Shown here: positions 3,828-34,498 of the stretch, in pieces
Layout: the number at the start of each line of letters is the position of its first letter
How positions within the stretch are numbered: the stretch's first letter is position 1
NCBI GenBank assembly: GCA_030603495.1
Contig: JAUVXR010000016.1
Location: 1 to 59,108, forward strand
Source of the DNA: a bacterium
GTDB lineage: Bacteria > Armatimonadota > Zipacnadia > Zipacnadales > Zipacnadaceae
Length of the DNA stretch: 59,108 nt
Reading direction: 5' to 3'
Translations under genes and position numbers: made by a program
The notes under the pieces: model-generated
What the model saw: only the letters and a program-made list of their open reading frames with translations
What the model was told of the DNA's origin: nothing
Databases searched by the model: none

Positions 3828-3857
3828 GTAGTTGGCTAGGCATGAGGGGTGACGCAG

Positions 3858-5126
3858 ATGGGTCAAAAAGTCCATCCATATGGTTTCCGGCTGGTCAGTA
3901 TCCGTAAGCCGCGCAGTCGATGGTTCGCTGAAGGTGAGCAATATCGCAAGCAGCTCATCGAGGATCTGCAAATTCGCGCGTACGTTCAGGATACACAGCG
4001 TAACGCGGGGATTTCCAACATCGTGATAGACCGGACCGCGGATACGATAACGGTAACCATCGAAGCGTCCAAGCCGGGGATCATGATCGGCCGTGGGGGG
4101 CGGGATGTGGACCGATTGCGGCGGAGACTGGAAAAGAAGATTGGTTCGCGGATTCGAGTCAATGTGGAAGAGACGCCCCGGCCGGAGCTGTGTGCCCAAT
4201 TAGTGGCGGAGAACATCGCCTGGCAAATTGAGCGACGCACCTCGCCGCGCCGGGCAATGGGCCAGGCTATGGAGCGGACTATGGAGCAAGGCGCGGAGGG
4301 AGTACGCTGCCAGATCGCGGGTAGAATTGGGGGCGCGGAGATAGCTCGTCGGGAGACGATGGGGCCCGAGGGCCGTGTGCCGCTGCATACGCTGCGAGCC
4401 GATGTTGACTATGGTGTTACCGAAGCCAAGACCGGCTATGGGAATATCGGGGTGAAGGTGTGGGTATATAGGGGCGAGATTCTGCCGCCTAAGAAGAGGG
4501 AGAAAGAGGACGTCTGGGCCGAGCTCGAAACCGAAGCCGCCAAGCTGGAAAGCGAGCGCGATGCGGTAGGAGCCGAAGCCCTGGTGGAACCGGAAGCTCC
4601 GGTGGAAGCCGAAGGCCCGGAGGCGGAAGCCCCGGTGGATGAGGAAGCCCCGGTGGATGAGGAAGCCCCGGTGGATGAGGAAGCCCCGGTGGAACCGGAA
4701 GCCGTGGTGGAACCGGAAGCCGTGGTGGAACCGGAAGCCGTGGTGGAACCGGAAGCCGTGGTGGAACCGGAAGCCGTGGTGGAGCCGGAAGCCGTGGTGG
4801 AACCGGAAGCCACAGTGGAGCCGGAAGCCACAGTGGAGCCGGAAGCCACAGTGGAGCCGGAAGCCACAGTGGAGCCGGAAGCCGTGGTGGAACCGGAAGC
4901 CCTGGTGGAACCGGAAGCTGGTGCGGGGAGCGACGAGGCGGCGGCAGCTGAGGAAGAAGGGGAAGCAGAGGCGGAGCTACAAGTTGCAGTGGAGACTGTG
5001 CCCACTGAAGAGATAGAAAAGCTACAAGAGCAGGCTGAGACTACGCCAGATACTATGGCAGGAGAGGCGACGGAAGAGGATAGGGAAGACGAGGGGGAGG
5101 AGGCCGATAGCAATGTTGATGCCTAA
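3858..5126 (+). CDS. rpsC: Small ribosomal subunit protein S3 with a long acidic repeat tail
   Basis: The first roughly 215 residues are a normal S3. They run [12 protein letters not shown] at the N terminus, the KH-domain loop IGRGGRD at about residue 77, then domain II ending near [15 protein letters not shown]3 normally stops about here; this protein runs to 422 residues. The extra 207 residues are almost entirely Glu, Pro, Ala, Val and Asp. They include sixteen tandem hexapeptides (residues 258-353) of the types APVDEE, AVVEPE and ATVEPE, then a Glu-rich end. GAGGGG at 3844-3849 is 8 bases before ATG 3858, so GTG 3849 is rejected. The 3' end overlaps rplP by 14 bases, so the tail is in frame up to a coupled downstream start. 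It should project near the mRNA entry side of the 30S subunit; its function is unknown. Confidence 0.93.
4629..4916 (+). repeat. Sixteen tandem 18-bp repeats inside rpsC
   Basis: This stretch is exactly 288 bases, or sixteen 18-bp units, each coding a hexapeptide of the form A-x-V-E/D-P/E-E. The order is three units of one type (GCCCCGGTGGATGAGGAA), one APVEPE unit, six AVVEPE, four ATVEPE, one AVVEPE and one ALVEPE. Neighbouring units are nearly identical at the base level, including synonymous sites. That points to recent expansion by slippage or unequal crossover, with reading frame preserved. Confidence 0.95.
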
Positions 5127-20174: not shown

Positions 20175-22127
20175 ATGCGCCCGCATCCTGATAAGACAGT
20201 GTTACGGCTGATGCTGATATTGTGTCTGCTCGCTGTCGCGGTAGGAACATCCGCTAACGACCGGGCGGCGCGTTATCACTGGCTTATCAGTCGTGCGGTG
20301 CTCTACGGGGTCGAAAGGATGGCCTCAGGGACGGACCTCGAGCTGATTCCACAAGGGGCGGGCTGGCCCAGCGTTTGCGCGGAAAGTCCTGGTTATGTTC
20401 TGGCGACTTTGGAACAGAACGCGGACGTTGACAGGGGCCAGCGCGTGCTGGCGGCGATACTCGCCGGCCAGGACACAGCCCCGGCCTCAGCCACCGTGGG
20501 GCAGTTCCCGTGGCATATTGGGGCAGATAGCCACCCCAGCCTGGAGGCGACCTATTTTGCGGCTCCGGTACTCTCGCAGATATACCTGAAGCATAGCGAT
20601 AAGCTGTCGCCGGAGCTTTCCGACAAACTCCGGGGAAGTCTAGATCTCGCCTTCACTTCGATCGCACGCAATGCACCGCCCTCGCCGGATGAAGTGACTG
20701 GTCTGCTGCGGGCAGCAGCGCTAGCCATGCTGGGTCGCGCGCTCGGCGGCGAGAGAGAGGTGCTTGATAGCGTCGCCCACGTCGCTGAGTGGTTATCCCG
20801 TGTAATGAAGGACGGCGTGGGTGGGGGCTACAGCCACAGTCTTGACGCTTATCGTCTGGCGGCCCTGAAGTGGATCTGGCAAGCGGCCTCCGCGCAGCAG
20901 CGGCCGGGGGCGCTGGAGGATGCTCTGGCTCTGATGTACCAAGATCTTGCCTATCGGGTGCAGCCCGATTCTGGTGCGGTGGGCGGGGCTCTGCTGTTTG
21001 CTGAGCGGGGCGACTATGTGCGTGGGGGGGAGTACAGTCCCTACCTTGTTTATACCGATCTGGGTGGGTCCCGGCCGGTGGCTGTCACCCCGTTTGCCAT
21101 GTTCTTTGTAGCACCTGATTACCAGCCGCAGCAGGACCTGCTGGCGGCGGCAGCTGGGGCGATGCCCTATCAGGTATCAACGGCAGCGCTGGCACAGGCA
21201 TACGTGCCCCGGACCGATACATATATGCACCGGCTGTTCAGCCTGGGGACGATGACCGGTCAGCCCAGCGCCACGAGTATACCGCTGTTTATGACTTTTG
21301 CGGAGCGAGGTAGCCGGCCGACTGCGTACTTCTTCACCCGGCCCCAGGCTAGCCACATTACCAGCATCCAGATGGGCAACGTAAGCGTGATCACAGTTGA
21401 CTTCGACTTCATCGGGCGGGGCGAGCGACGAACAGCCCTGCTTCAAGGAATATTGGGGCCTCGCTCGCGGGTCGGGCAAGTCGTGCTGGGGTCGGGGGAG
21501 TGGAACGGGCTGTCAGCGGCGGTGCCTGAGATGGGCATAATAGCGCTGGAGAGATCGGGATGCTACGTGGGCATCCGAATTCTGCGCGCTGGTCCCGCCG
21601 AGAGCCAGGGGGTTGTGTCCGGCCCCAAGCCTGGCACGTTGGCGTGGAGTGATGAGGGTGACAGCGGCGAGCTGCAATTGACCGTCTATGCGCGCAAGCA
21701 AGGCTATGACCTGCGTGCGCGGGAGCATAATCTACGCGTCGGGGTAGCCGTAGAGGTGGTGCCAGCCAGCGATTTTGAGTCGCTATCGGCGTTTGCCACA
21801 AATTTCGCGCGTGTACGGCTCCGCCAGAGCGTCGAGCGGGTTAAAGAGGCACTCCCGGAGCCGAGTGATCCTTTCGAAGCAGTGTTAACGGAGCACGATC
21901 CCAAAGGCAAGTCCGATCTGGAGTACAAACATTCACTGCTGCATACGATAGAGTATCAGAGCCAGGAGCTGACGCTGGAAGTTCAGGAGGATATGCTTAG
22001 CGGAGAGGTCATATACCGGCTAGCCAATGGGGAGCCAATGGTAGTAGGTGGTCCCTGGCAGGTGGGGGAGCGGGTGTTGGAGTGGGGAGCCCCGGGACCC
22101 GCGTCATTCTTGACAACCACCCCCTGA
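20175..22127 (+). CDS. Secreted protein of unknown function, 650 residues
   Basis: I do not recognise a named family. The N terminus has basic residues followed by a hydrophobic stretch (VLRLMLILCLLAVAVGTSAN), a typical signal peptide with cleavage near residue 27. The first half is rich in short helices with aromatic and small residues and resembles alpha/alpha-barrel proteins. The second half (from about residue 330) looks beta-rich, like the sandwich domains of secreted polysaccharide lyases or hydrolases. A lyase-like architecture is a guess from composition; no catalytic motif is claimed. It begins at ATG 20175 after an AGAAGTGATG region and lies between rpsI and the rpmF promoter, so it may share the ribosomal transcript. 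Confidence 0.7.
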   Translation: MRPHPDKTVLRLMLILCLLAVAVGTSANDRAARYHWLISRAVLYGVERMASGTDLELIPQGAGWPSVCAESPGYVLATLEQNADVDRGQRVLAAILAGQDTAPASATVGQFPWHIGADSHPSLEATYFAAPVLSQIYLKHSDKLSPELSDKLRGSLDLAFTSIARNAPPSPDEVTGLLRAAALAMLGRALGGEREVLDSVAHVAEWLSRVMKDGVGGGYSHSLDAYRLAALKWIWQAASAQQRPGALEDALALMYQDLAYRVQPDSGAVGGALLFAERGDYVRGGEYSPYLVYTDLGGSRPVAVTPFAMFFVAPDYQPQQDLLAAAAGAMPYQVSTAALAQAYVPRTDTYMHRLFSLGTMTGQPSATSIPLFMTFAERGSRPTAYFFTRPQASHITSIQMGNVSVITVDFDFIGRGERRTALLQGILGPRSRVGQVVLGSGEWNGLSAAVPEMGIIALERSGCYVGIRILRAGPAESQGVVSGPKPGTLAWSDEGDSGELQLTVYARKQGYDLRAREHNLRVGVAVEVVPASDFESLSAFATNFARVRLRQSVERVKEALPEPSDPFEAVLTEHDPKGKSDLEYKHSLLHTIEYQSQELTLEVQEDMLSGEVIYRLANGEPMVVGGPWQVGERVLEWGAPGPASFLTTTP

Positions 22128-22342: not shown

Positions 22343-22543
22343 ATGGCCGTGCCCAAGAGAAAAACTTCCAAGAGCCGGCGTAACAAGCGCCGCACCCATC
22401 ACGCACTCAATGCGCCGACCCTCGTGGAGTGCTCCAATTGCGAGGCAATGATCCGGCCGCACAACGCCTGCCACAAGTGCGGCTATTATCAAGGCGAGAA
22501 GGTGGACCATACCGTGGAGCAGGAGACCAGCCGGCGCAGCTAA
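22343..22543 (+). CDS. rpmF: Large ribosomal subunit protein L32, zinc form
   Basis: This 66-residue protein is L32. It starts AVPKRKTSKSRRNKRRTHHA and carries ECSNCEAMIRPHNACHKCGYY, with four cysteines in a zinc ribbon. rpmF commonly precedes plsX and the fab genes in bacteria, and does so here. The yceD/DUF177 gene that often lies directly upstream is absent, and a long leader with its own promoter takes its place. Confidence 0.96.
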   Translation: MAVPKRKTSKSRRNKRRTHHALNAPTLVECSNCEAMIRPHNACHKCGYYQGEKVDHTVEQETSRRS

Positions 22544-22576
22544 GAGAGCGTCGGCGAGGTTGTGTGGGAGCAGCTT

Positions 22577-23581
22577 ATGGTCATTGCGGTTGATGCCATG
22601 GGAGGGGACTGTGCACCACGCGCGGTAGTGGAAGGCGCGCTGCGTAGCGCAGGCGCGCTGCCCGTGGAAATAGTGTTAGTGGGTCGGCCGGACCAAATCG
22701 AGCAATATCTGCCGTCCCCTGGCCGCCGGCCCAATAACCTGCGAACGGTGGCAGCCGACGATGTGATCCCCATGGCATCCGCCTCACCGCGGCGTGTGCT
22801 CAGACGGCGCAATTCATCAATGTTTATGGCTGTGGATATGGTCAGCAGTGGCGAGGCGCAGGCGGTAGTCTCGGCGGGCAATTCCGGTGCGTTGCTAGCT
22901 CTTTCCCATGCCTGTTTGGGCGTAATCGAAGGATTGCGCCGGCCAGGCATCGCCGCGCCACTCATTACCTTGCAGGGCCCGGGCGTGTTGATAGATGCCG
23001 GGGCTAACGTGGACTGCCAGCCGATTCACCTAGCCCAGTTTGGCCTGATGGGCAGTACCTATGCCCAATATGCCTTGAACATTGACAACCCCCGGGTGGG
23101 TTTGCTCAACATCGGCGCGGAACCCTCCAAGGGGACTGACTTGACGCGGGCTGCCTTTGAGCTACTCTCGCAGGCGGCGATTAACTTTATCGGCAACGTC
23201 GAAGCGGAGCATATTTTCAACGGGGATGCCCAAGTGGTGGTCAGTGACGGGTTCGTGGGCAACGTAACCCTAAAGATGACTGAAGCCGTGGCCCAGTTTG
23301 TCATGGAAGAGCTGCGGCGCTCCTCTCAGAAGAGCTTGACCACCAAGCTTGGCACCTTCTTACTGCGTGATGGGCTTCGTCAGTTGCACGAACGCTATGA
23401 CTATGCTACCTACGGAGGTGCTCTGCTGTTGGGCGTCCAGGGCATTAGCGTGGTCGGCCATGGCCGCTCGGATGCCAAGGCGATCGCCAACGCTATTTCC
23501 GTAGCATACCACGCGGTCGAAGGCCGAGTGGTTGGGCATCTCCGGGAAACGTGTGGTTTACTGGTGGGGAGCCCGAGCTGA
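22577..23581 (+). CDS. plsX: Phosphate acyltransferase PlsX
   Basis: This 334-residue enzyme makes acyl-phosphate from acyl-ACP, feeding phospholipid synthesis through PlsY. The N terminus VIAVDAMGGDCAPRAVVEGA and the middle SAGNSGALLALS, LIDAGANVDCQP and NIGAEPSKGTDL match the family. The C-terminal GGALLLGVQGISVVGHGRSD is also typical. ATG 22577 follows GGGAG; an upstream in-frame GTG at 22562 would add five residues. It lies between rpmF and fabH as in many bacteria. Confidence 0.96.
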   Translation: MVIAVDAMGGDCAPRAVVEGALRSAGALPVEIVLVGRPDQIEQYLPSPGRRPNNLRTVAADDVIPMASASPRRVLRRRNSSMFMAVDMVSSGEAQAVVSAGNSGALLALSHACLGVIEGLRRPGIAAPLITLQGPGVLIDAGANVDCQPIHLAQFGLMGSTYAQYALNIDNPRVGLLNIGAEPSKGTDLTRAAFELLSQAAINFIGNVEAEHIFNGDAQVVVSDGFVGNVTLKMTEAVAQFVMEELRRSSQKSLTTKLGTFLLRDGLRQLHERYDYATYGGALLLGVQGISVVGHGRSDAKAIANAISVAYHAVEGRVVGHLRETCGLLVGSPS

Positions 23582-23644: not shown

Positions 23645-24655
23645 ATGTCCTTGCGTGGCGCAACAATTTGCGGTGTAGGGTCGTATCTCCCCGAGCAGGT
23701 CTTGACCAACGCTGACTGGGAGCGGATGGTTGATACCACCGACGAATGGATTCTCAGCCACACCGGCATCCGGGAGCGTCGGCTGGCGGCACCAGATCAA
23801 GCCTGCTCAGACCTGGCTATCCCCGCAGCCCAGCGGGCTCTGGAAGACGCCAGTGTTGACCCCCAGCAAATCGGCCTGGTCATAGTGACAACGGTCAGTC
23901 CCGACCATTTCTTCCCTGCCACAGCCTGCTTGGTCCAGAGCGCAATTGGTGCAACTAACGCGGGAGCGATGGATCTGACCAGCGGCTGCACAGGGTTCAT
24001 CTATGCGATGGTCACGGGCGCGAACTTCATCCGCGCCGGCGCCTACGACTACGTGTTGGTGATCGCTTCGGAGGTGCTGACGCGCACTGCCAACTGGGCG
24101 GATCGGACGACCTGCGTGCTATTTGGCGATGGAGCAGGCGCGACCGTGCTTGGCCCATGTGAGCCAGATGAGGGCTTGCTATCGTTTGCGCTAAGCTCGC
24201 ACGGTGAGTACGGTGACCTGCTGATAATGCCAGGAGGCGCCTCGCGCATGCGCGCGACCGCGGAGGGGATTGCCCGGCATCAGGACTGCCTACAAATGGA
24301 AGGGCATGACATCTTCAAGCTGGCCGTTCGGGGCATACCCCGAATTGCCCGTGACGCGCTGGCCAAGGCAGGACTAAAGACCGGCGACATATCGGCTGTG
24401 GTTATGCACCAGGCTAACCAGCGCATCCTGGATGCCTCAGCCGACCGGCTCGGGATAGAACGCGACAGAGTGATAAGCACGGTGGGCAAGTACGGCAATT
24501 CCTCCGCCGCTAGCGTGCCGCTGTGTCTCGATGATGTCTATCGCAGTGGCGGCTTGGAACCAGGCGATATTGTCTTGCTCGTGGGTTTCGGAGCTGGCTT
24601 TACCCTGGGGGCAGCCGTCCTGCGCTGGACATTGCCCCGCTTTCCTGCCGAATAG
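23645..24655 (+). CDS. fabH: Beta-ketoacyl-ACP synthase III
   Basis: This 336-residue enzyme condenses an acyl-CoA primer with malonyl-ACP to start fatty-acid synthesis. The catalytic triad is clear: Cys115 in TSGCTGFIYA, His255 in VMHQANQRI and Asn285 in YGNSSAAS. GIRERR near residue 41 contacts CoA in homologues, and the C-terminal VGFGAGFTLGA is typical. It follows plsX by 63 bases. It precedes an acyl-CoA dehydrogenase rather than fabD. Confidence 0.97.
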   Translation: MSLRGATICGVGSYLPEQVLTNADWERMVDTTDEWILSHTGIRERRLAAPDQACSDLAIPAAQRALEDASVDPQQIGLVIVTTVSPDHFFPATACLVQSAIGATNAGAMDLTSGCTGFIYAMVTGANFIRAGAYDYVLVIASEVLTRTANWADRTTCVLFGDGAGATVLGPCEPDEGLLSFALSSHGEYGDLLIMPGGASRMRATAEGIARHQDCLQMEGHDIFKLAVRGIPRIARDALAKAGLKTGDISAVVMHQANQRILDASADRLGIERDRVISTVGKYGNSSAASVPLCLDDVYRSGGLEPGDIVLLVGFGAGFTLGAAVLRWTLPRFPAE

Positions 24656-24698: not shown

Positions 24699-25850
24699 AT
24701 GGACTTCTCATTCACCGAAGAACAACGGGAGATCTTCGCGGCGGTCCAAGAGATCTGCGCGGAGGAGCTCAAACCGAAGGCCGACGAGATAGACCGACGC
24801 GGTGAATATCCCTGGGATAACATCAAGCTGCTGGCGGAATTGGACCTGTTCGGCATCCCGGTGCCGCCGGAGTACGGCGGCCTAGGCTTGGGCTTTATAG
24901 AATGGGCTGTGGTTGGTGAACTGCTCTCTGCAGCCTGTACGACTACCGGGGCGGTCTACGGGGCTCACATGCTGGCCGAATACCCGATTATGGTCTTCGG
25001 TACCGACGAGCAGAAGCAGAAGCATCTCGCTCCCCTGGCAAGAGGCGAAAAGATTGGTGCCTTTGGCTTAACTGAGCCTAACGCCGGCTCGGATGCCGGC
25101 GCCGTGCAGACCCGCGCCGAACTTCGTGGTGACGAGTACATCCTCAACGGCAGCAAGGTGTTCATCACCAACGGCGGGGATGCCGAGATATATGTCATCA
25201 TCGCCAATGTAGCCCCCGAGATGGGCACGCGTGGGCTGACCGCCTTCATCGTAGAAAAGGGCACGGAGGGCTTCAGCTTCGGCAAGGACGAGGAGAAGAT
25301 GGCCTACTCGGCATTGTCTAACCGCGAGTTGATCTTCCAGGACGCACGTGTGCCCCAAGCAAACCTGCTGGGCCGTGAGCGTCGGGGCTTCCGCGTGGCG
25401 ATGGCGACGCTGTCGGTGGGGCGAATTGGCATGGCTATCGGCGCGGTGGGCCTGGCCCAGGCCGCCTACGATGCCGCCGTAGCCTACGCACCGACCCGAG
25501 AGCAGTTTGGCCAGCCCATCAGCGAGTTCCAGGCGATTCAGTTTATGCTGGCGGATATGGCGACGGGCATCGAGGCGGCTCGCTGGCTGACGTACAGTGC
25601 CGCCTGGCGCAAAGACCAGGACCTCGATTACGAGAAGCAAGCTGCTATGGCCAAGGTGTTCGCCTCCGAGATGTGTGTGGACGTCTGCAACAAAGCTGTG
25701 CAGATTCACGGCGGCTACGGGTACAGCAAGGACTACGCGGTCGAGCGCTACTACCGCGAGGCCAAGCTGTTTGATATCGTCGAGGGCACCTCGCAGATTC
25801 AGCGGCTGGTCATCGCTAACCGCTTGCTTAAAGAAGCGAAGAGCCAGTAA
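24699..25850 (+). CDS. Acyl-CoA dehydrogenase family flavoprotein
   Basis: At 383 residues this has the full three-domain ACAD layout. LTEPNAGSDAGAVQTRA binds FAD and substrate, FITNGGDAEIYV follows, and the C-terminal helical domain ends in YREAKLFDIVEGTSQIQRL. Glu362 in VEGTSQ is at the position of the catalytic base in short-chain and butyryl-CoA dehydrogenases. Such enzymes interconvert acyl- and 2-enoyl-thioesters with FAD and pass electrons to ETF. Here the partner genes etfB and etfA follow directly. Its place between fabH and fabD suggests a role in chain synthesis or supply rather than degradation; that is inference. Confidence 0.93.
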   Translation: MDFSFTEEQREIFAAVQEICAEELKPKADEIDRRGEYPWDNIKLLAELDLFGIPVPPEYGGLGLGFIEWAVVGELLSAACTTTGAVYGAHMLAEYPIMVFGTDEQKQKHLAPLARGEKIGAFGLTEPNAGSDAGAVQTRAELRGDEYILNGSKVFITNGGDAEIYVIIANVAPEMGTRGLTAFIVEKGTEGFSFGKDEEKMAYSALSNRELIFQDARVPQANLLGRERRGFRVAMATLSVGRIGMAIGAVGLAQAAYDAAVAYAPTREQFGQPISEFQAIQFMLADMATGIEAARWLTYSAAWRKDQDLDYEKQAAMAKVFASEMCVDVCNKAVQIHGGYGYSKDYAVERYYREAKLFDIVEGTSQIQRLVIANRLLKEAKSQ

Positions 25851-25870
25851 TAGAGTACCACCAACAAGAG

Positions 25871-26653
25871 ATGAACATAATCGTCTGCATAAAACAGGTT
25901 CCTGACACTGCTGACGTCAGGATTGACCCGGAGACTAACACGCTGATCCGCGAGGGCGTGCCCAGCATCATCAATCCCTTCGATGAGAACGCGATTGAGG
26001 CCGCGCTTCAGCTCAAAGAGCAGCACGGTGGGCAGGTCACGGTAATTACGATGGGCCCACCGCAGGCCGAAGGGGCGCTGCGGCAGGCGCTGGCGATGGG
26101 CTGTGACGAGGCTATCCTGATCAGCGACCGGGCCTGTGCGGGCAGCGACACGCTGGCGACTTCGTATATTCTGTCTCAGGCCATACGGAAAATCGGCGAC
26201 TACGACCTGATCATCTGTGGCAAGCAGGCATTCGACGGCGACACTGCCCAGGTTGGCCCGGGCATCGCTGAGCACCTGGGCATTCCGCAGGCGACCTACG
26301 CGGTAGATGTTGAGGTCGAAGAGCAGACGATTCACGTGAGACGTTTGCTGGCGGGGCGGTTTGAGACTATAGAGATGAAGTTGCCGGCGCTGCTTACCGC
26401 CGATAAGCATATGAATGATCCCCGGCACGCGGGACTGCGCGGTGTGATGCAGGCCCGCAAGAAAGAGATACCTATCTGGTCAATTGAGGAGATCGAGGCG
26501 GACCCGGAGCGGTGTGGCCTGTTGGGCTCGCCCACGACGGTGATCGAGATATTCCCGCCCCAGCGCTCCCGTCAGAGCCAGCGCCTCGAGGGCGACCCGC
26601 ATGAGGTTGCCAGCCAGCTCTTCGCGAAGCTACGCGAGAACCAGATAGTATAG
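25871..26653 (+). CDS. etfB: Electron transfer flavoprotein, beta subunit
   Basis: This 260-residue protein has the EtfB adenine-nucleotide domain: IIVCIKQVPDTADVRIDPET at the N terminus, INPFDENAIEAALQLKE, and LLAGRFETIEMKLPALLTA with PRHAGLRGVMQARKK near the C terminus. The loop FDGDTAQVGPGIAEHLGIPQ resembles EtfB of anaerobic butyryl-CoA dehydrogenase systems, some of which bifurcate electrons. Mitochondrial-type EtfB differs there. It begins 20 bases after the dehydrogenase. Confidence 0.94.
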   Translation: MNIIVCIKQVPDTADVRIDPETNTLIREGVPSIINPFDENAIEAALQLKEQHGGQVTVITMGPPQAEGALRQALAMGCDEAILISDRACAGSDTLATSYILSQAIRKIGDYDLIICGKQAFDGDTAQVGPGIAEHLGIPQATYAVDVEVEEQTIHVRRLLAGRFETIEMKLPALLTADKHMNDPRHAGLRGVMQARKKEIPIWSIEEIEADPERCGLLGSPTTVIEIFPPQRSRQSQRLEGDPHEVASQLFAKLRENQIV

Positions 26654-26670
26654 CCAAGGACTCACAGAGC

Positions 26671-27870
26671 ATGGACATATACATAGATGTGGAAAAGTGC
26701 ACCGGCTGTCAGCTGTGCGTAAAGGCATGTCCCTACGGTGCAATCGAGATGGCCGGCGACACCGCCAGCATCACGGGGGCCTGCACGCTGTGCGGGGCAT
26801 GTGTAAGTGTCTGTCCCGTCCAGGCCATAATCAGGGAGCTACCGGCAGTAGAAGATATTGATAATAGTGATTACCGAGGCGTATGGGTAGTGGCGGAAGT
26901 GAGCGACGGCCAACTGGCAGGCGTGAGCCTGGAGCTGCTGGGCAAGGGGCGCGAGTTGGCTGACACGCTTCAGGCACCGCTGAGCGCGGTCTTGGTGGGT
27001 GACGACGTCGCCGGGTTGGTGGTGGGGGCGGCGGAATCTGGCGCGGACCAGGTCTATCTGGCAGAAGATCCGGCTCTGGCGCAGTACCGCACCGGGCCGT
27101 ATACGGATGTGCTATCAGGGCTCATAAACCAACATAAACCCGAGATCGTCCTCTTGGGCGCGACGGAACAGGGTCGGGACCTGGCCCCACGGGTGGCGGC
27201 TCGAGTGAAGACTGGGCTGACCGCTGATTGCACAGGTCTGGAGATTGACGAGCAGGAGCGTCTTCTAATTCAAACGCGACCGGCGTTTGGTGGTAACATC
27301 ATGGCCCGGATTATCACCCGCAATCACCGCCCGCAGATGGCAACGGTTCGCCCTCGGGTGATGCGACGACTGGAACCTGTGCCGGGCCGCGAGGCGGCGG
27401 TAGTCAAGGTACCTGTCGCCTTTGATGAGAAGTCAATACTGACGCGCATCGTGGAGATCGCGCGCGACGAAGGTGCCGAGGCGGTTAATCTTCAGGACGC
27501 AGATATTATCGTCGCCGGGGGACGGGGTCTGAAGAAACCCGAGAACTTCGGAGTCATCTACGAGCTGGCGGAGGCATTAGGTGGGGTGGTGGGCGCGTCG
27601 CGGCCGACGGTGGACGAGGGCTGGATTCCCCCCTATCACCAAGTCGGCCAGACCGGCAGGACCGTCCAGCCCAAACTCTATATCGCCTGTGGCATCTCCG
27701 GCGCGGTACAGCATCTGGCGGGAATGTCCGGTGCTGATTGTGTTGTGGCTGTCAACAGCGATCCCAACGCCGCGATATTCGACATTGCCCACTACGGTAT
27801 CGTCGGCGACTTGTTCGAGATAGTGCCAGCGCTGACCGAAATCGCGCGACAAGAGCTTGCCCAAGACTAG
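26671..27870 (+). CDS. etfA: Electron transfer flavoprotein alpha subunit fused to a two-cluster ferredoxin domain
   Basis: This 399-residue protein begins with a ferredoxin domain. Cys10, 13, 16 and 20 (KCTGCQLCVKACP) and Cys38, 41, 44 and 48 (CTLCGACVSVCP) would bind two [4Fe-4S] clusters. A normal EtfA follows, with the FAD-binding C terminus GQTGRTVQPKLYIACGISGA and AVNSDPNAAIFDIAHYGIVG. EtfA proteins with such N-terminal domains are known from acetogen and clostridial lactate, caffeyl-CoA and related reductases. The domain would let ferredoxin or an iron-sulfur partner exchange electrons with the dehydrogenase. Confidence 0.94.
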   Translation: MDIYIDVEKCTGCQLCVKACPYGAIEMAGDTASITGACTLCGACVSVCPVQAIIRELPAVEDIDNSDYRGVWVVAEVSDGQLAGVSLELLGKGRELADTLQAPLSAVLVGDDVAGLVVGAAESGADQVYLAEDPALAQYRTGPYTDVLSGLINQHKPEIVLLGATEQGRDLAPRVAARVKTGLTADCTGLEIDEQERLLIQTRPAFGGNIMARIITRNHRPQMATVRPRVMRRLEPVPGREAAVVKVPVAFDEKSILTRIVEIARDEGAEAVNLQDADIIVAGGRGLKKPENFGVIYELAEALGGVVGASRPTVDEGWIPPYHQVGQTGRTVQPKLYIACGISGAVQHLAGMSGADCVVAVNSDPNAAIFDIAHYGIVGDLFEIVPALTEIARQELAQD

Positions 27871-28845: not shown

Positions 28846-29586
28846 TTGGACCTGGCAGGCCAAGTAGCGCTGGTAACTGGATCCGGTCGGGGAATTGGGC
28901 GGGCGATTGCCCTGGCCCTCGCTGACCACGGCGCGAACCTGGTGATAAACGATGTGGTGGCCGAGAGCGCAAAAGTGGTGGCGGCAGAGACAGAGGAACT
29001 GGGGCGGGAGGCGATGGCAGTCGCGGCGGATGTGACTGATGAAGCGGCGGTTCAGGAAATGATTGATTCTGTCCTGGACAGGTTCGGACGCATTGATATC
29101 CTGGTGAATAACGCTGGCATTACCCGAGATGCTCTGCTCATTCGGATGTCCGAGGAGCAGTGGGATGCAGTGCTCAGTATCAACCTGAAGGCAGCCTTCC
29201 TATGTACCAAGGCAGTGGCTCGTCTTATGCTGAAGGCGCGCAGCGGCCGGATCATCAATATTGCATCTGTGGTCGGGCTGACCGGGAATGCCGGGCAGGC
29301 CAACTATTCGGCATCCAAAGGTGGTCTGGTTGCCCTGACCAAGACGACGGCGCAGGAGCTAGGCAGTCGCGGGATTACCTGTAATGCGGTTGCCCCCGGC
29401 TTCATTGAGACCGAAATGACTGAGGCGCTACCCGACGAAGCACGGGAACAGATGCTGAGGCGGGTTCCGCTAGGCCGCGCGGGCCATACAACAGATGTCG
29501 CCAATGTCGCGGTCTTCCTGGCCGGACCGGCTGCCTCATACATTACCGGACAGGTCATTACCGTTGACGGCGGAATGGTGATGTAG
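28846..29586 (+). CDS. fabG: 3-oxoacyl-ACP reductase
   Basis: This 246-residue SDR enzyme reduces 3-oxoacyl-ACP with NADPH. The cofactor loop TGSGRGIGRA is near residue 12, NNAGITRD follows, and Ser141, Tyr154 and Lys158 (ANYSASKGG) form the catalytic set. ETEMTEALPDEAREQ and GQVITVDGGMVM are typical of FabG. GGGAGG at 28833-28838 is 7 bases before TTG 28846, which gives the usual LDLAGQVALVTG start; ATG 28822 would add eight residues. Confidence 0.96.
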   Translation: MDLAGQVALVTGSGRGIGRAIALALADHGANLVINDVVAESAKVVAAETEELGREAMAVAADVTDEAAVQEMIDSVLDRFGRIDILVNNAGITRDALLIRMSEEQWDAVLSINLKAAFLCTKAVARLMLKARSGRIINIASVVGLTGNAGQANYSASKGGLVALTKTTAQELGSRGITCNAVAPGFIETEMTEALPDEAREQMLRRVPLGRAGHTTDVANVAVFLAGPAASYITGQVITVDGGMVM

Positions 29587-29646: not shown

Positions 29647-29886
29647 GTGGCACTGTTTGAACGAGTTAAGGAAGTGATTGTGCGTGAGCTAGCCGTTCCC
29701 GAAAGCCAGGTAACCGAGGGGGCGAGCTTCGATGGCGATCTGAAGGCTGATTCGCTGGATGTGGTCGAGTTGGTGATGGCTCTGGAGGACGAATTTGACT
29801 TGGAAATTCCAGAGGAGGATGCGGAGAAGATGCAGACCGTCGGAGATGCAGTTGCTTATCTGGAAGAGCACGGGGCGGCGAGGTAG
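29647..29886 (+). CDS. acpP: Acyl carrier protein
   Basis: This 79-residue acidic helical protein carries the growing acyl chain on a 4'-phosphopantetheine arm. The attachment site is Ser36 in [19 protein letters not shown]. The rest, [21 protein letters not shown], is the usual fourth-helix region. It starts at GTG 29647 after ACGGAGGTGA. The order fabG-acpP-fabF is the standard one. Confidence 0.97.
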
Positions 29887-29985
29887 GCTTATCGCGACGC
29901 GCAACAGACCGTCCATGTTAGCGGAACTGTTCCTCCTTGAGGATGCCCATTTTGCATCCGGTGTCCTGGGACACTGCAGGTGACA

Positions 29986-31224
29986 ATGAGTAATAGACGC
30001 GTAGTGATAACAGGTGTCGGGATGGTTTCACCGGTGGGTAATTCGCCCCAGGAGTTCTGGGGTGCTGTCTGTGCCGGCGAGTCGGGGATTGCGCCGATCA
30101 GGCAATTTGACGTGAGCCAATACGGTGTGCGTATTGCCGGCGAGGTCAAGGATTTTGATCCAACCGTCTGGGTTGACCAAAAGGTTGCTCGACGGTGTGA
30201 CCGCTTCGTGCAGTTTGCCCTCGCCGCGACTAAGATGGCGCTCGCCGACGCGACCCTCGAGATAACAGACGGCAACCGTGATCGCGTGGGGGTACTGATC
30301 GGCTCGGGCGTCGGGGGGATGCGCACGTGGGAGGAGCAGCACGAGATTCTCCTGAAGCGGGGGCCGTCGCGGGTCTCGCCGTTCCTGGTACCGATGATGA
30401 TCGTTGATATGGCCTCGGGAATGGTCGCCATTCAGACTGGGGCACGGGGGCCGAATATCGCTATCACTAGCGCCTGCGCCACGGCGGGACATGCAATCGG
30501 CGAGGCGGCAGAAACAATAAGGCGAGATGCTGTGGACGTGATGGTAGCCGGTGGCGCGGAAGCAGCAATCACCCCGACGGCAATGGCTGGATTTACCTCG
30601 GCCAAGGCGCTGTCTACCCGGAATGATGATCCGCATCGGGCGTGCCGGCCCTTCGACCGTGACCGCGACGGGTTTGTCGTAGGCGAGGGCAGTACCGTGG
30701 TGGTCCTCGAAGAGCTTAGCCACGCGCAGAGGCGGGGAGCGAAGCTATGGGGCGAGTTACTCGGATACGGCGCGACTGCCGACGCCTATCACGTTACCGC
30801 GCCCGACCCGCAGGGCGGAGGTGCACGCCTGGCGATGGAGGCTGCTCTCCAAGACGCCGGGCTTGAGCCTGCGGATATTGATTACGTCAACGCCCATGCG
30901 CCGGGCACGCCGGCCGGCGACGCGGGCGAAGCGCTGGCCCTGGCAGAGGTCTTCGCTGACCCAGTTCCCATATCCTCGACGAAGCCGATCCACGCCCATC
31001 AGCTTGGTGCAACCAGCGCCACTGAGCTAATTGTAGGCCTCCTGGCCATCCGCGAGAATCTCATTCCTCACACGCTCAATTGCGACAACATTGATGAAGC
31101 AGTGCCGGAGAGTCTGGACATCGTGCGTGGGCAGCCGCGCAGGGCACAGATCAATGTGGTGATGTCCAATTCCTTCGGCTTTGGTGGCCACAACGCCGTC
31201 TTGATCGTCTCTGGGGCTGAATAA
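29986..31224 (+). CDS. fabF: Beta-ketoacyl-ACP synthase II family protein
   Basis: This 412-residue condensing enzyme elongates acyl-ACP. The nucleophile Cys164 is in ITSACATAGHAIGEA, and histidines at about 304 (VNAHAPGTPAGD) and 338 (KPIHAHQLGATS) complete the active site. These last two motifs depart from the usual AHGTSTPLGD and KSMTGHLLGAAG: the GTS is replaced by APG, and the loop before the second histidine reads IHAH. NSFGFGGHNAV near the end is normal. ATG 29986 is used; GTG 29980 would add two residues. It closes the fatty-acid cluster before rnc. Confidence 0.93.
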   Translation: MSNRRVVITGVGMVSPVGNSPQEFWGAVCAGESGIAPIRQFDVSQYGVRIAGEVKDFDPTVWVDQKVARRCDRFVQFALAATKMALADATLEITDGNRDRVGVLIGSGVGGMRTWEEQHEILLKRGPSRVSPFLVPMMIVDMASGMVAIQTGARGPNIAITSACATAGHAIGEAAETIRRDAVDVMVAGGAEAAITPTAMAGFTSAKALSTRNDDPHRACRPFDRDRDGFVVGEGSTVVVLEELSHAQRRGAKLWGELLGYGATADAYHVTAPDPQGGGARLAMEAALQDAGLEPADIDYVNAHAPGTPAGDAGEALALAEVFADPVPISSTKPIHAHQLGATSATELIVGLLAIRENLIPHTLNCDNIDEAVPESLDIVRGQPRRAQINVVMSNSFGFGGHNAVLIVSGAE

Positions 31225-31257: not shown

Positions 31258-31977
31258 ATGCCCCAATACAAGCTGTGGCAGCAGTTGGCGGAGGCACTAG
31301 ACTTGCCCGAGTTAGCACCCGACCTGTTACGGCAGGCCCTATCGCACCCCTCGTACGTGCGGGAGGCCGGGCGTAGTCCTCATGAGTCTAACCAGCGACT
31401 GGAATTCTTGGGCGACGCGATCCTCGACGCGGTAGTCGCCCAGGAGCTGTACCGGCGATTCCCCGAGATGGCCGAGGGCTGGCTGACTCGGGCCAAGGCC
31501 GCAACGGTGCGCACTGCCAACCTAGCCAAAGTGGCCCGAGCGCTCGACCTGGGGAAGTACCTGCTGCTGGGCCACGGCGAGGAGAAAAGTGGCGGACGCA
31601 GCAAGACCTCGGTGTTGGCAGATGCGCTCGAGGCCGTACTGGGAGCGATTTACCTGTCCGCGGGCTGGCCCGCAGCCTGCCGGTTTGTGCTCACCCATCT
31701 TCTAGATGCAATCAACAAAGTCGAGGGCCGCACTTTACAGGATGCCAAGACTTCACTGCAAGAGCTTTGCCAGGCATCTACGCAGAGCACGCCGGAGTAC
31801 GTCACAGTGAGCTCTACTGGACCCCCCCATGCTCCAGTTTTCGAGGTTGAAGTGCGATTTGACCAGCGTGTGATAGGGCAGGGCAAGGGGCGCAGCAAGC
31901 AGGAAGCGGAGCAGGCTGCAGCGGATGCCGCACTGGCTGCGAAGGAGCAATGGCTATCTGGGCTGACGGCCAACTAG
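31258..31977 (+). CDS. rnc: Ribonuclease III
   Basis: This 239-residue enzyme cuts double-stranded RNA during rRNA and mRNA maturation. The catalytic signature [12 protein letters not shown] is at about residues 46-57, and [16 protein letters not shown] carries the second acidic cluster. The C-terminal third, [17 protein letters not shown] to the end, is the double-stranded-RNA-binding domain. It is common for rnc to follow fabF. ATG 31258 is preceded by a GAAGGCTGAG stretch. Confidence 0.95.
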
Positions 31978-32011: not shown

Positions 32012-34498
32012 ATGAATAGGCAAGGCGCCTTTATCCTTGTGACACTGCTATTACTGGCGGGTGCCAGTGTGGGCTATGCCCGGCCCGGCCCGTTCGTATT
32101 CGCCTATGACCTCCAGGGCCCTGACGCTGCGCCGCTCGCTGCGGCTATTGGGCTTAACACCCTCTATCTGCCGGTTCCTGCCGATTTCGCCCAGCACCCC
32201 TTCGCCCTCAGAAAGCAGATGGCGGAAGCCGAGAGGTTAGGATTAAAGGTTATCCTCGCCTTACCGACCATGCCGCCCGGGCCGGTCGGGATAACTGCCA
32301 CTGACCCCGAGCTTGCCGAGTACGCAAGGGCGGTGATCGGTGAAACCGTCGTGGCGCTGAGAGATGAGCCTGCGCTGGCCGGATGGGCGACTGCCGACTA
32401 TCTCGAGGAGGATCTTCGCCACACCGACGAAGAGTTCGCTGAGTTTCTTCGGGAACGGTACGGCAGTCTCGAGCTGCTCAACGCCTCCTGGCGCTCCGGC
32501 TTCACAAACTGGTCAGACATCTCTATGGCCCAGGCCGAGGAGCTGGATGAGCAGCAACCTTTTGGGGTCGGCCGGCCGTCAGTTGATCTGGCTGACTATG
32601 AGCGGGCGATGTTTATGCGAGTTATGGAGCTGTGGGGGCACCAGGTGCGAGTCCTGGATGCGGCGACCCCGCTGTTCACTGGTCGTATCGGCTTATACCG
32701 GTGCCTCACGGCGGTTCCCGATAGCTACGATGTGGTCGTGGCGGCTGTCTCGCCGGCTATAATGGAAGCAGACGAATTGTGCCACAACGTTCACGCGGTA
32801 GATATGGCCCGGCAGGCCGGCCGATTCGATGTCGTTCGCGCGTTGCACGTACCGGTGCCAGGGGAACCAGTCTACTCTGACGATGCTCTTGAGCAGTGGA
32901 TGCTCCAGGCGGCGCTTCACGGGGCTGTGGGCGTCGGTCTGGACAACTACTCCCGGCTTATCGGCAGTGGCTTACTACCCATGCCAAGACCGCCGACCGC
33001 TCACCCAACTCCCGAGGCTCTGGTGCAAAGCAAACTGGCAGGAATCGTCCGCGGGGCGCTCGAGCGTGGCGCTTTCACCGTTCAGCCTCAGGCCCATGCC
33101 GCCTTCCTGTACGAGCCCTACGCCGGCGGCCACCAACTCGGAGATCTGCCGGTCTATGGGTACATCGGCGACTTCTCCGAGGGCGAACCCAACAATCTAT
33201 TCAATGCCTTTCGCCGTGGTAGCCGGTTTGGTGGCGTGGACTATCTCAGTATCGAGGTTCTGCGTGAACCGTCGGTGAACCTCGATCAGTATAGCTTTAT
33301 CGCGGCTCCACTGGCACTCAGCCTACCTGCTGAAGCTGCCGCCAGGATACGGGACTACGTAACTGACGGCGGAGCCTTCCTCACGGATCTGGGCGCAGGC
33401 ATGTACCAGAGCGGGTCCTGGCAACGTTTGCCCGACGAACTGGCCCCCCTGCTAGGAGTCGAACAGATGCCCTTGCTGCGTGGGGGAGTAATGGAAAAAG
33501 GTGATTTCTCATTCGGCGTGGCTTCTCAGCATTTCCCTTCAATTCACCCGCCGCTCGACAGCCAGGGTTCTTTCACGGTTCGTAAGACAGTAACAAAGCG
33601 TGAGGGGGAAACTGAGCGCCGAGTGACGCAAGGCAGTGTGTTGGACCTGCGCACCCATACGTACGGTGGGTGGATGGGGTACGCCTCACTGCTTCCCGGA
33701 GCTGTCCCTTTCGCCATAGGCAGACTGGAATACAGTGAAACTGCTGGTCGGCTTTCTTCGGGCATAATCCTCCACGAGTACGGCCTGGGGCTGGGCATCT
33801 TCGCTACGACGCGGCTGTGGGCTAACTGGTCACCCGGTGATCCCGCATTCCAGAGCTTTCATCATGACCTGTGGGCGCGGCGCGCTGCCTATGAACTGCA
33901 CGGCCCCACACTATTCGCTCGGGACATCGAGATCTGCGCGAGCGGCGATTCACTCTATCTACTTAATATCGGACGGGAGCTCGCGCTGGCCGAGTTCACT
34001 GCCGGCCAGGCCGCCAACCGTATCTATCAGGGCGGCTTCTGCTGGTTTTCAGCGGGTCATCGCCTTCCCTCGGGACGCCGCTCGGGCCGTGTGATGGTGA
34101 GCGCTCCGGTACCGCCATTGCGCGTAGCCAGAGTGGTGGCGCGACCGGTGGAGATCAAACCGCACTACGCCGAGGCCGCCGGTGTGGTGCTTACCTACCG
34201 CTCGGACTTGGTTGAGCTGGAGATTGCCGGGGCGGGCGCGCTCCTCAGAGGCAACCCCAGTACCGGCTGGCAGCTTGGCTATGGCCGGCGCACACCCGTG
34301 CGGATAATGCTGCGCCCCGGGGGTAAAGATGCTTACTCAATTGCACCGTTGTCGCAGCACCAGGTTGAGGTCAACTACGACTTCCAGCCGCCGGAAGAGC
34401 TGAGCATCCAGGCGGACCACTCCGGCCGCCTGCGCTTCGACATCAATGCGCGACGCGCCCGTGTCCGCATTATGCCGCTTGCCCCACAAAGCTCCTAG
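32012..34498 (+). CDS. Secreted beta-galactosidase/GH42-like protein
   Basis: This 828-residue protein starts with a signal peptide (FILVTLLLLAGASVGYA). The N-terminal half looks like a TIM barrel. FLRERYGSLELLNASWRSGF resembles the GH42 stretch that begins RYG-x-LE-x-LN-x-WG, and ALHGAVGVGLDNYS follows. From about residue 350 there is a class I glutamine-amidotransferase-like segment (VLREPSVNLDQYSFIAAPLA, RIRDYVTDGGAFLTDLG), which in GH42 enzymes is the trimerisation domain. The C terminus is beta-rich. The catalytic glutamates were not confidently placed, so activity is uncertain. It lies between rnc and uvrA, where a secreted glycosidase is not expected. Confidence 0.75.
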   Translation: MNRQGAFILVTLLLLAGASVGYARPGPFVFAYDLQGPDAAPLAAAIGLNTLYLPVPADFAQHPFALRKQMAEAERLGLKVILALPTMPPGPVGITATDPELAEYARAVIGETVVALRDEPALAGWATADYLEEDLRHTDEEFAEFLRERYGSLELLNASWRSGFTNWSDISMAQAEELDEQQPFGVGRPSVDLADYERAMFMRVMELWGHQVRVLDAATPLFTGRIGLYRCLTAVPDSYDVVVAAVSPAIMEADELCHNVHAVDMARQAGRFDVVRALHVPVPGEPVYSDDALEQWMLQAALHGAVGVGLDNYSRLIGSGLLPMPRPPTAHPTPEALVQSKLAGIVRGALERGAFTVQPQAHAAFLYEPYAGGHQLGDLPVYGYIGDFSEGEPNNLFNAFRRGSRFGGVDYLSIEVLREPSVNLDQYSFIAAPLALSLPAEAAARIRDYVTDGGAFLTDLGAGMYQSGSWQRLPDELAPLLGVEQMPLLRGGVMEKGDFSFGVASQHFPSIHPPLDSQGSFTVRKTVTKREGETERRVTQGSVLDLRTHTYGGWMGYASLLPGAVPFAIGRLEYSETAGRLSSGIILHEYGLGLGIFATTRLWANWSPGDPAFQSFHHDLWARRAAYELHGPTLFARDIEICASGDSLYLLNIGRELALAEFTAGQAANRIYQGGFCWFSAGHRLPSGRRSGRVMVSAPVPPLRVARVVARPVEIKPHYAEAAGVVLTYRSDLVELEIAGAGALLRGNPSTGWQLGYGRRTPVRIMLRPGGKDAYSIAPLSQHQVEVNYDFQPPEELSIQADHSGRLRFDINARRARVRIMPLAPQSS

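Follow-up and report, generated by a model that had tools for sequence, protein, structure and literature searches.

Electron-transfer flavoprotein-linked acyl-CoA dehydrogenase encoded in a bacterial fatty-acid synthesis cluster as a putative enoyl-ACP reductase

The stretch of DNA analyzed in this study (hereafter, the window; 59,108 nucleotides) corresponds to contig JAUVXR010000016.1 of the assembly GCA_030603495.1, from a bacterium of the class Zipacnadia in the phylum Armatimonadota. The window carries a type II fatty-acid synthesis (FAS II) cluster in which the genes for an acyl-CoA dehydrogenase (ACAD)-family flavoprotein and the two subunits of an electron-transfer flavoprotein (ETF), EtfB and EtfA, are placed between fabH and fabD. 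These three genes (hereafter, the trio) are evaluated here as a candidate for the enoyl-acyl carrier protein (ACP) reductase. All 11 genes lie on the forward strand in the order rpmF-plsX-fabH-[ACAD-etfB-etfA]-fabD-fabG-acpP-fabF-rnc (Table 1). The gaps between fabH, ACAD, etfB, etfA, and fabD are short (43, 20, 17, and ~20 bases, respectively), and thus, the trio and the flanking fab genes probably share one transcript. An earlier sequence-only reading of this DNA had described the one-strand order from fabH to fabD, a catalytic Glu362 in the ACAD, two ferredoxin-like clusters in EtfA, and the lack of fabI, fabK, fabL, fabV, and fabZ from rpmF to fabF. Each of these descriptions, including the coordinates, was borne out.

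The source genome (2.67 Mb, 62 contigs, 93.5% complete) was searched family by family for enoyl-ACP reductases. The FabK model had no match in the genome, and the E. coli FabI query retrieved only FabG-level matches (best E-value of 6e-12), while YX6K reductases of other genomes in the phylum score 1e-27 to 1e-78 with the same query. All nine short-chain dehydrogenases/reductases (SDRs) found in the genome have the YxxxK motif, and none was assigned to FabI or FabL by NCBIfam. A partial SDR match on contig 31 (6327-6413) was rejected as a reductase, being a 44-codon remnant of an SDR C-terminus downstream of another open reading frame on the same strand. The sequence-only reading had named a genome-wide search for fabI, fabK, fabL, fabV, and fabZ as a check; FabZ was present on contig 33, adjoining lpxA, and FabI, FabK, and FabL were not found, while the FabV profile was uncontrolled. 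The trio is encoded with FAS II genes and is the only enoyl-ACP reductase candidate found in the genome under this uncontrolled FabV profile. Its candidate protein is an ACAD and lacks the SDR fold and YX6K motif that define the FabI/FabL family.

The ACAD of the fab cluster is the only ACAD in the source genome. No crotonase (PF00378) was found in this genome, while the same profile matched 11 of 14 control genomes. With no crotonase and a single ACAD, there is no β-oxidation for the trio to serve, and the 2-enoyl thioester would, as far as is visible, come only from FabZ and be bound to ACP. The missing crotonase argues against an enoyl-CoA supply through hydration/dehydration, the only source of enoyl-CoA that was searched; it limits a CoA role of the trio, not its electron-transfer mechanism.

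Table 1. Genes of the fab cluster and diagnostic sites of the trio (positions in the window unless given as residues)
Feature	Position	Strand	Description
rpmF	22343..22543	+	Upstream end of the conserved cluster; neighbor kept in relatives
plsX	22562..23581	+	PF02504, E-value 1e-98
fabH	23645..24655	+	NCBIfam PRK09352 and TIGR00747 above cut-off
ACAD-family flavoprotein, 383 aa	24699..25850	+	PF02771/PF02770/PF00441 above cut-off; putative enoyl-ACP reductase subunit
Asp49 codon of ACAD	24843..24845	+	Diagnostic of fab-type ACADs; Gly in Bcd-type
ACAD codons 90-91	24966..24971	+	Flank a one-residue deletion relative to Bcd, acyl-pocket region
Catalytic Glu362 codon of ACAD	25782..25784	+	Invariant in 73 aligned ACADs
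etfB, bifurcating type, 260 aa	25871..26653	+	PF01012
DGDTAQVGP β-FAD motif of EtfB	residues 122-130, about 26234-26260	+	Exact match
etfA, CarE-like, 399 aa	26671..27870	+	Pfam Fer4 twice, ETF, ETF_alpha
EtfA N-terminal 2x[4Fe-4S] ferredoxin domain	residues 1 to about 57		Pfam Fer4 twice
fabD	27891 (ATG)..28820 (stop)	+	TIGR00128 above cut-off
fabG, YxxxK type	28846..29586	+	TIGR01830 above cut-off
acpP	29647..29886	+	TIGR00517 above cut-off
fabF	29980..31224	+	TIGR03150 above cut-off
rnc	31258..31977	+	Downstream end of the conserved cluster; neighbor kept in relatives

Recurrence of the gene order in related genomes had been named beforehand as a test, and the order was found to be strongly conserved. 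The 11-gene order recurs in relatives of the same genus, family, order, and class, down to ~60% EtfA identity, which excludes chance; a candidate division WS1 bacterium was the only named-genome record with full synteny at high identity. Its genome coincides with G029, from the same order as the source genome, which makes the latter a WS1 relative; NCBI lists WS1 as a bacterial clade of no rank. Exactly one ACAD was present in each of the 28 sampled genomes of the class. By the YX6K criterion, 23 of the 28 had no known enoyl-ACP reductase; FabK above cut-off was found in none of the 28, and crotonase was not found in 27. The trio was inside the fab cluster in 23 of the 27 genomes where it could be placed, that of G015 being on a 3.6-kb contig. 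Twenty-one genomes had a linked trio and no known reductase, two a linked trio and a reductase, one an unlinked trio and no reductase, and three an unlinked trio and a reductase (Fisher p = 0.013), counts that are inflated by kinship among the genomes. The last three (G043, G044, and G045) have a FabI-like reductase, for which the YX6K motif was seen in G044 and G045 and the G043 assignment is based on score and kinship only. The genome with an unlinked trio and no known reductase (G042) is an exception to this pattern. On contig 170 of G045, ACAD-etfB-etfA is immediately preceded by a FabI gene and is not part of a fab cluster, possibly an intermediate or backup arrangement.

The closest solved structures of the ACAD include Bcd (5OL2 and 4L1F) and CarC (6FAH). 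In a maximum likelihood tree, the fab-linked ACADs formed two strongly supported groups, a WS1-type group (support 100/100) and a group of Omnitrophota and others (100/99), and Bcd of Clostridioides difficile and Acidaminococcus fermentans fell outside both. The tree did not include CarC. A single clade of the two groups was not rejected (p-AU = 0.51), and they may be of single origin. Asp49 was found in 51 of the 53 ACADs that make up the two fab-type clades and in 0 of 20 others. The one-residue deletion at codons 90-91, in a region that presumably lines the acyl pocket, was present in all 53 members and also in 1UKW of T. thermophilus. Both features were traced in further genomes beyond the aligned set. 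The basic residue Arg209 was enriched in the two fab-type groups (86% and 75%, compared with 5% in others), but as it could not be located with respect to the substrate entrance, no ACP-binding patch is proposed from it. The structure predicted by AlphaFold from the single ACAD sequence had low confidence (mean pLDDT, a per-residue measure, of 35) and was set aside.

In the phylum sample, the comparison of fab-type ACAD with known enoyl-ACP reductase gave a 29/8/4/13 table (p = 2e-4), in which the genomes are not independent and the fab-type class was defined after part of the data had been seen. The association was retained when restricted to unmixed families (p = 0.04). This table replaced a first one that counted any ACAD (p = 0.02). 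Genomes of the phylum without a fab-type ACAD mostly carry FabI or FabK, and the FabI-bearing G052, G056, G057, G066, G069, and G116 have another ACAD type with no Asp49 and mostly no deletion. Fab-type ACAD and a known reductase occur together in G046, G067, and G088. Five genomes with no known reductase (G050, G064, G106, G108, and G113) carry a fab-type ACAD and are possibly further cases of replacement without synteny. In these five, the gene stands alone, apart from ETF and fab genes. G119, a genome of the same phylum in one contig of 3.3 Mb, has no FabI-level match, no FabK above cut-off, and no ACAD.

The arrangement was also found in other phyla. In nine Omnitrophota loci, the trio adjoins fabF, mostly with acpP. 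In Nitrospirae GWC2_57_13, it lies within plsX-fabH...fabD-fabG-acpP-fabF-rnc with a short ACAD, and a Thermodesulfovibrionales genome has etfB-etfA-fabD with the fab-type ACAD at another place. Further fab-linked trios were found in a Dehalococcoidia, a Deltaproteobacterium, and bacterium Yes71-08. Neither a FabI-level match nor FabK above cut-off was found in these other-phylum genomes. The picture is less clean for the Dehalococcoidia and the Deltaproteobacterium, each of which encodes numerous ACADs and crotonases; the Deltaproteobacterium also has FabK-like proteins under cut-off. The closed 1.14-Mb Omnitrophota chromosome CP070655 (G125) is a clean case, with one ACAD, which is fab-linked, and no crotonase, no FabK, and no FabI-level match.

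By exclusion and genomic context, the ACAD-EtfB-EtfA complex is very probably an enoyl-ACP reductase that replaces the usual enzyme. This role had been suggested in the sequence-only reading and is now strongly favored by comparison of sequences, with no normal enoyl-ACP reductase found in the genome. The three proteins would form one complex for the last step of the FAS II cycle, to which FabZ would supply trans-2-enoyl-ACP. The ACAD flavin would give a hydride to C3, and Glu362 would handle the C2 proton, yielding acyl-ACP.

The electron supply was considered from the two ETF subunits. The β-FAD motif DGDTAQVGP, which is said to be missing in non-bifurcating ETFs (PMC9232219), is found in EtfB, and the pattern [DE]GDTxQV(G/P)P is present in EtfB of 33 of the 34 fab-linked loci. 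The nearest structures of EtfB were CarD of 6FAH, 4KPU, and 5OL2 (E-values of 1e-74 to 1e-78), compared with 1e-35 for non-bifurcating ETFs. EtfA aligns over its full length with CarE of 6FAH (E-value of 4e-120), the ferredoxin domain of which has been described in a review of electron bifurcation (PMC5861303). The CxxCxxCxxxC motif occurs twice in EtfA (C10, 13, 16, 20 and C38, 41, 44, 48); these eight cysteines are invariant in 16 relatives and intact in all 34 fab-linked loci. The nearest solved ETFs were all from bifurcating complexes, namely, CarCDE (6FAH), Bcd-EtfAB (5OL2), A. fermentans Etf (4KPU), Ldh-EtfAB (7QH2), and EtfABCX (7KOE), while the E-values of non-bifurcating ETF structures were higher by ~30 to 40 orders of magnitude. 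Residues corresponding to those with interface roles in the relatives (EtfA Arg243, Bcd Glu198, and Bcd Asp345; PMC5691135, PMC9232219) are kept as EtfA Arg311 and ACAD Glu198 and Asp345. On contig 20 of the same genome (273958-275124), a second ferredoxin-type EtfA, 52% identical, is encoded with an EtfB, followed by a FixC-like flavoprotein; this set looks like a separate EtfABCX/FixABCX-type complex.

In the relatives, NADH reduces β-FAD, from which one electron is transferred to ferredoxin and one via α-FAD to the ACAD flavin; the potentials are −10 mV for crotonyl-CoA/butyryl-CoA, −320 mV for NADH, and −405 mV for ferredoxin (PMC5691135). As the β-FAD motif, the interface residues, and the CarE-type ferredoxin domain are kept, NADH-driven reduction with reduced ferredoxin as a by-product is proposed. 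The EtfB flavin would be reduced by NADH, and one electron would pass via the shuttle flavin of EtfA to the ACAD. The other electron, if the complex bifurcates like its closest structural relatives, would reach ferredoxin (Fd) through the 2x[4Fe-4S] domain that is fused to EtfA, giving 2 NADH + enoyl-ACP + 2 Fdox -> acyl-ACP + 2 NAD+ + 2 Fdred. The ACP-bound substrate, the reductive direction, NADH as the donor, and ferredoxin as the acceptor are all inferred here. We consider the chances of bifurcation, on top of the reductase role, to be about even.

The alternative that survives best retains the enoyl-ACP reductase role and changes nothing but the route of the electrons: NADH or reduced ferredoxin alone would feed the ACAD, as in the acryloyl-CoA reductase (AcrCAB) of Clostridium propionicum. 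The top NCBIfam models were AcrC for the ACAD and AcrA for EtfA, and AcrB was second for EtfB. As the C. propionicum ETF has been described as non-bifurcating (PMC9232219), these matches warn that a related complex can operate without bifurcation. However, the scores were far under the equivalog cut-offs (454.6/640, 257/475, and 349.2/600), and AcrCAB uses a CoA substrate. The intact ferredoxin domain in all fab-linked loci also argues against this alternative, and truncation of the equivalent domain in Ldh-EtfAB abolishes the coupled reaction (PMC9232219). We regard the non-bifurcating reductase as somewhat unlikely.

Several observations weigh against the assignment of the trio as the enoyl-ACP reductase. 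The FabV profile (PF12241) was silent in all genomes, controls included, which leaves the absence of FabV unproven. No FabI, FabK, or YX6K reductase was found, but other folds such as the medium-chain dehydrogenase/reductase (MDR) and old yellow enzyme were not searched. Approximately 6.5% of the source genome may be missing, and the compared genomes are mostly metagenome-assembled. G019 and G024 carry both the cluster and FabI, and thus, the trio need not be the only reductase in a genome. Four genomes of the phylum (G053, G090, G103, and G119) have neither a known reductase nor a fab-type ACAD, and therefore, an unrecognized reductase can exist. From the FabV result and these four genomes, it can be argued that FabV or an MDR- or nitronate monooxygenase-type reductase performs the ordinary step, while the trio makes special primers or acts on side products. 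We consider this improbable, as the same absence pattern recurs in many genomes, one of them closed, and nothing but the trio is consistently added to the fab cluster. Reduced acyl primers, which the sequence-only reading had offered as another role, lost probability, since no pathway was visible that would supply an enoyl thioester on CoA.

A degradative or fermentative ACAD, for β-oxidation or butyrate formation, might sit in the fab cluster by happenstance. The ACAD and ETF families are classically CoA-linked, and the relatives 5OL2, 4L1F, and 6FAH use CoA thioesters. However, the absence of crotonase from the source genome and all but one of the class genomes, the single ACAD, and the fab-cluster order held across the class and several phyla make this explanation very improbable, and the inserted β-oxidation unit that the sequence-only reading had allowed for is disfavored. 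Least probable of all is that the trio acts as an acyl-ACP dehydrogenase, oxidizing medium-chain acyl-ACP to initiate the formation of unsaturated fatty acids like FabX in Helicobacter, with the normal step left to an unrecognized reductase. FabX is a precedent for flavin dehydrogenation of acyl-ACP in FAS II (PMC8626469), and the co-occurrence of the cluster and FabI in two class genomes agrees with this reading. However, 23 of the 28 class genomes and the Omnitrophota would each need another reductase that was not seen, and electrons would be forced uphill to NAD+ or ferredoxin.

The putative reductase was compared with known systems. CarCDE, the caffeyl-CoA reductase of Acetobacterium woodii (6FAH), has the same composition (ACAD, EtfB, and EtfA with a fused 2x[4Fe-4S] domain), and its three subunits are homologous to those of the window over their full length; it differs in that its substrate is a CoA thioester and its pathway caffeate respiration, whereas the window genes are in a fatty-acid synthesis cluster. 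Bcd-EtfAB of C. difficile (5OL2) and A. fermentans (4KPU/4L1F) shares the bifurcating EtfB motif, the catalytic Glu, and the contacts between EtfA Arg and ACAD Glu/Asp. In contrast, its EtfA is without the ferredoxin domain, it belongs to a butyrate pathway with crotonase, and Bcd has neither Asp49 nor the pocket deletion. FabI, FabL, FabV, FabK, FabI2, FabL2, and FabMG catalyze the step that is proposed for the trio but are SDR-type enzymes or, for FabK, of the nitropropane-dioxygenase type. FabX of Helicobacter pylori likewise carries flavin and [4Fe-4S] and has acyl-ACP as its FAS II substrate, but it is an unrelated single-protein dehydrogenase/isomerase that works in the oxidative direction for unsaturated fatty acids.

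Elsewhere in the window, the ribosomal protein S3 reading frame (3849-5126) encodes 425 aa, of which the S3 domains stop at approximately residue 206; the remainder forms a long C-terminal extension. The fab cluster is flanked by two long open reading frames (20175-22127, 650 aa; 32012-34498, 828 aa) with no Pfam match at 1e-10.

Nearly all bacteria make fatty acids, and the enzymes credited with the final reduction have been of the SDR or FabK type. The enoyl reductases covered in a 2022 review are FabI, FabK, FabV, FabL, FabL2, FabI2, and FabMG, with no mention of ACADs or electron transfer (PMC9260719), and fatty-acid synthesis and enoyl-ACP are both absent from the review of electron bifurcation (PMC5861303). 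No earlier report of ACAD-etfB-etfA in a fab cluster was found in the literature searched, which left preprints and most subscription journals outside. The components have precedents, while novelty seems to lie in their role, their genomic setting, and the repeated replacement. If the proposed role is true, the trio would fill an apparent pathway hole in WS1, Omnitrophota, and other uncultured lineages, the genomes of which an annotation pipeline would read as missing FabI and having a stray acyl-CoA dehydrogenase, and the ACAD fold would join the folds of enoyl-ACP reductases. It is an evenly balanced prospect that, in several anaerobic lineages, the enoyl-ACP of each elongation cycle is reduced at the cost of two NADH, with the surplus energy stored as two reduced ferredoxins. 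Bifurcation would then extend from catabolism to membrane-lipid biosynthesis with an energy return for each two-carbon addition, and the synthesis of membrane lipids would be partly energy-conserving via an undescribed class of enoyl-ACP reductase.

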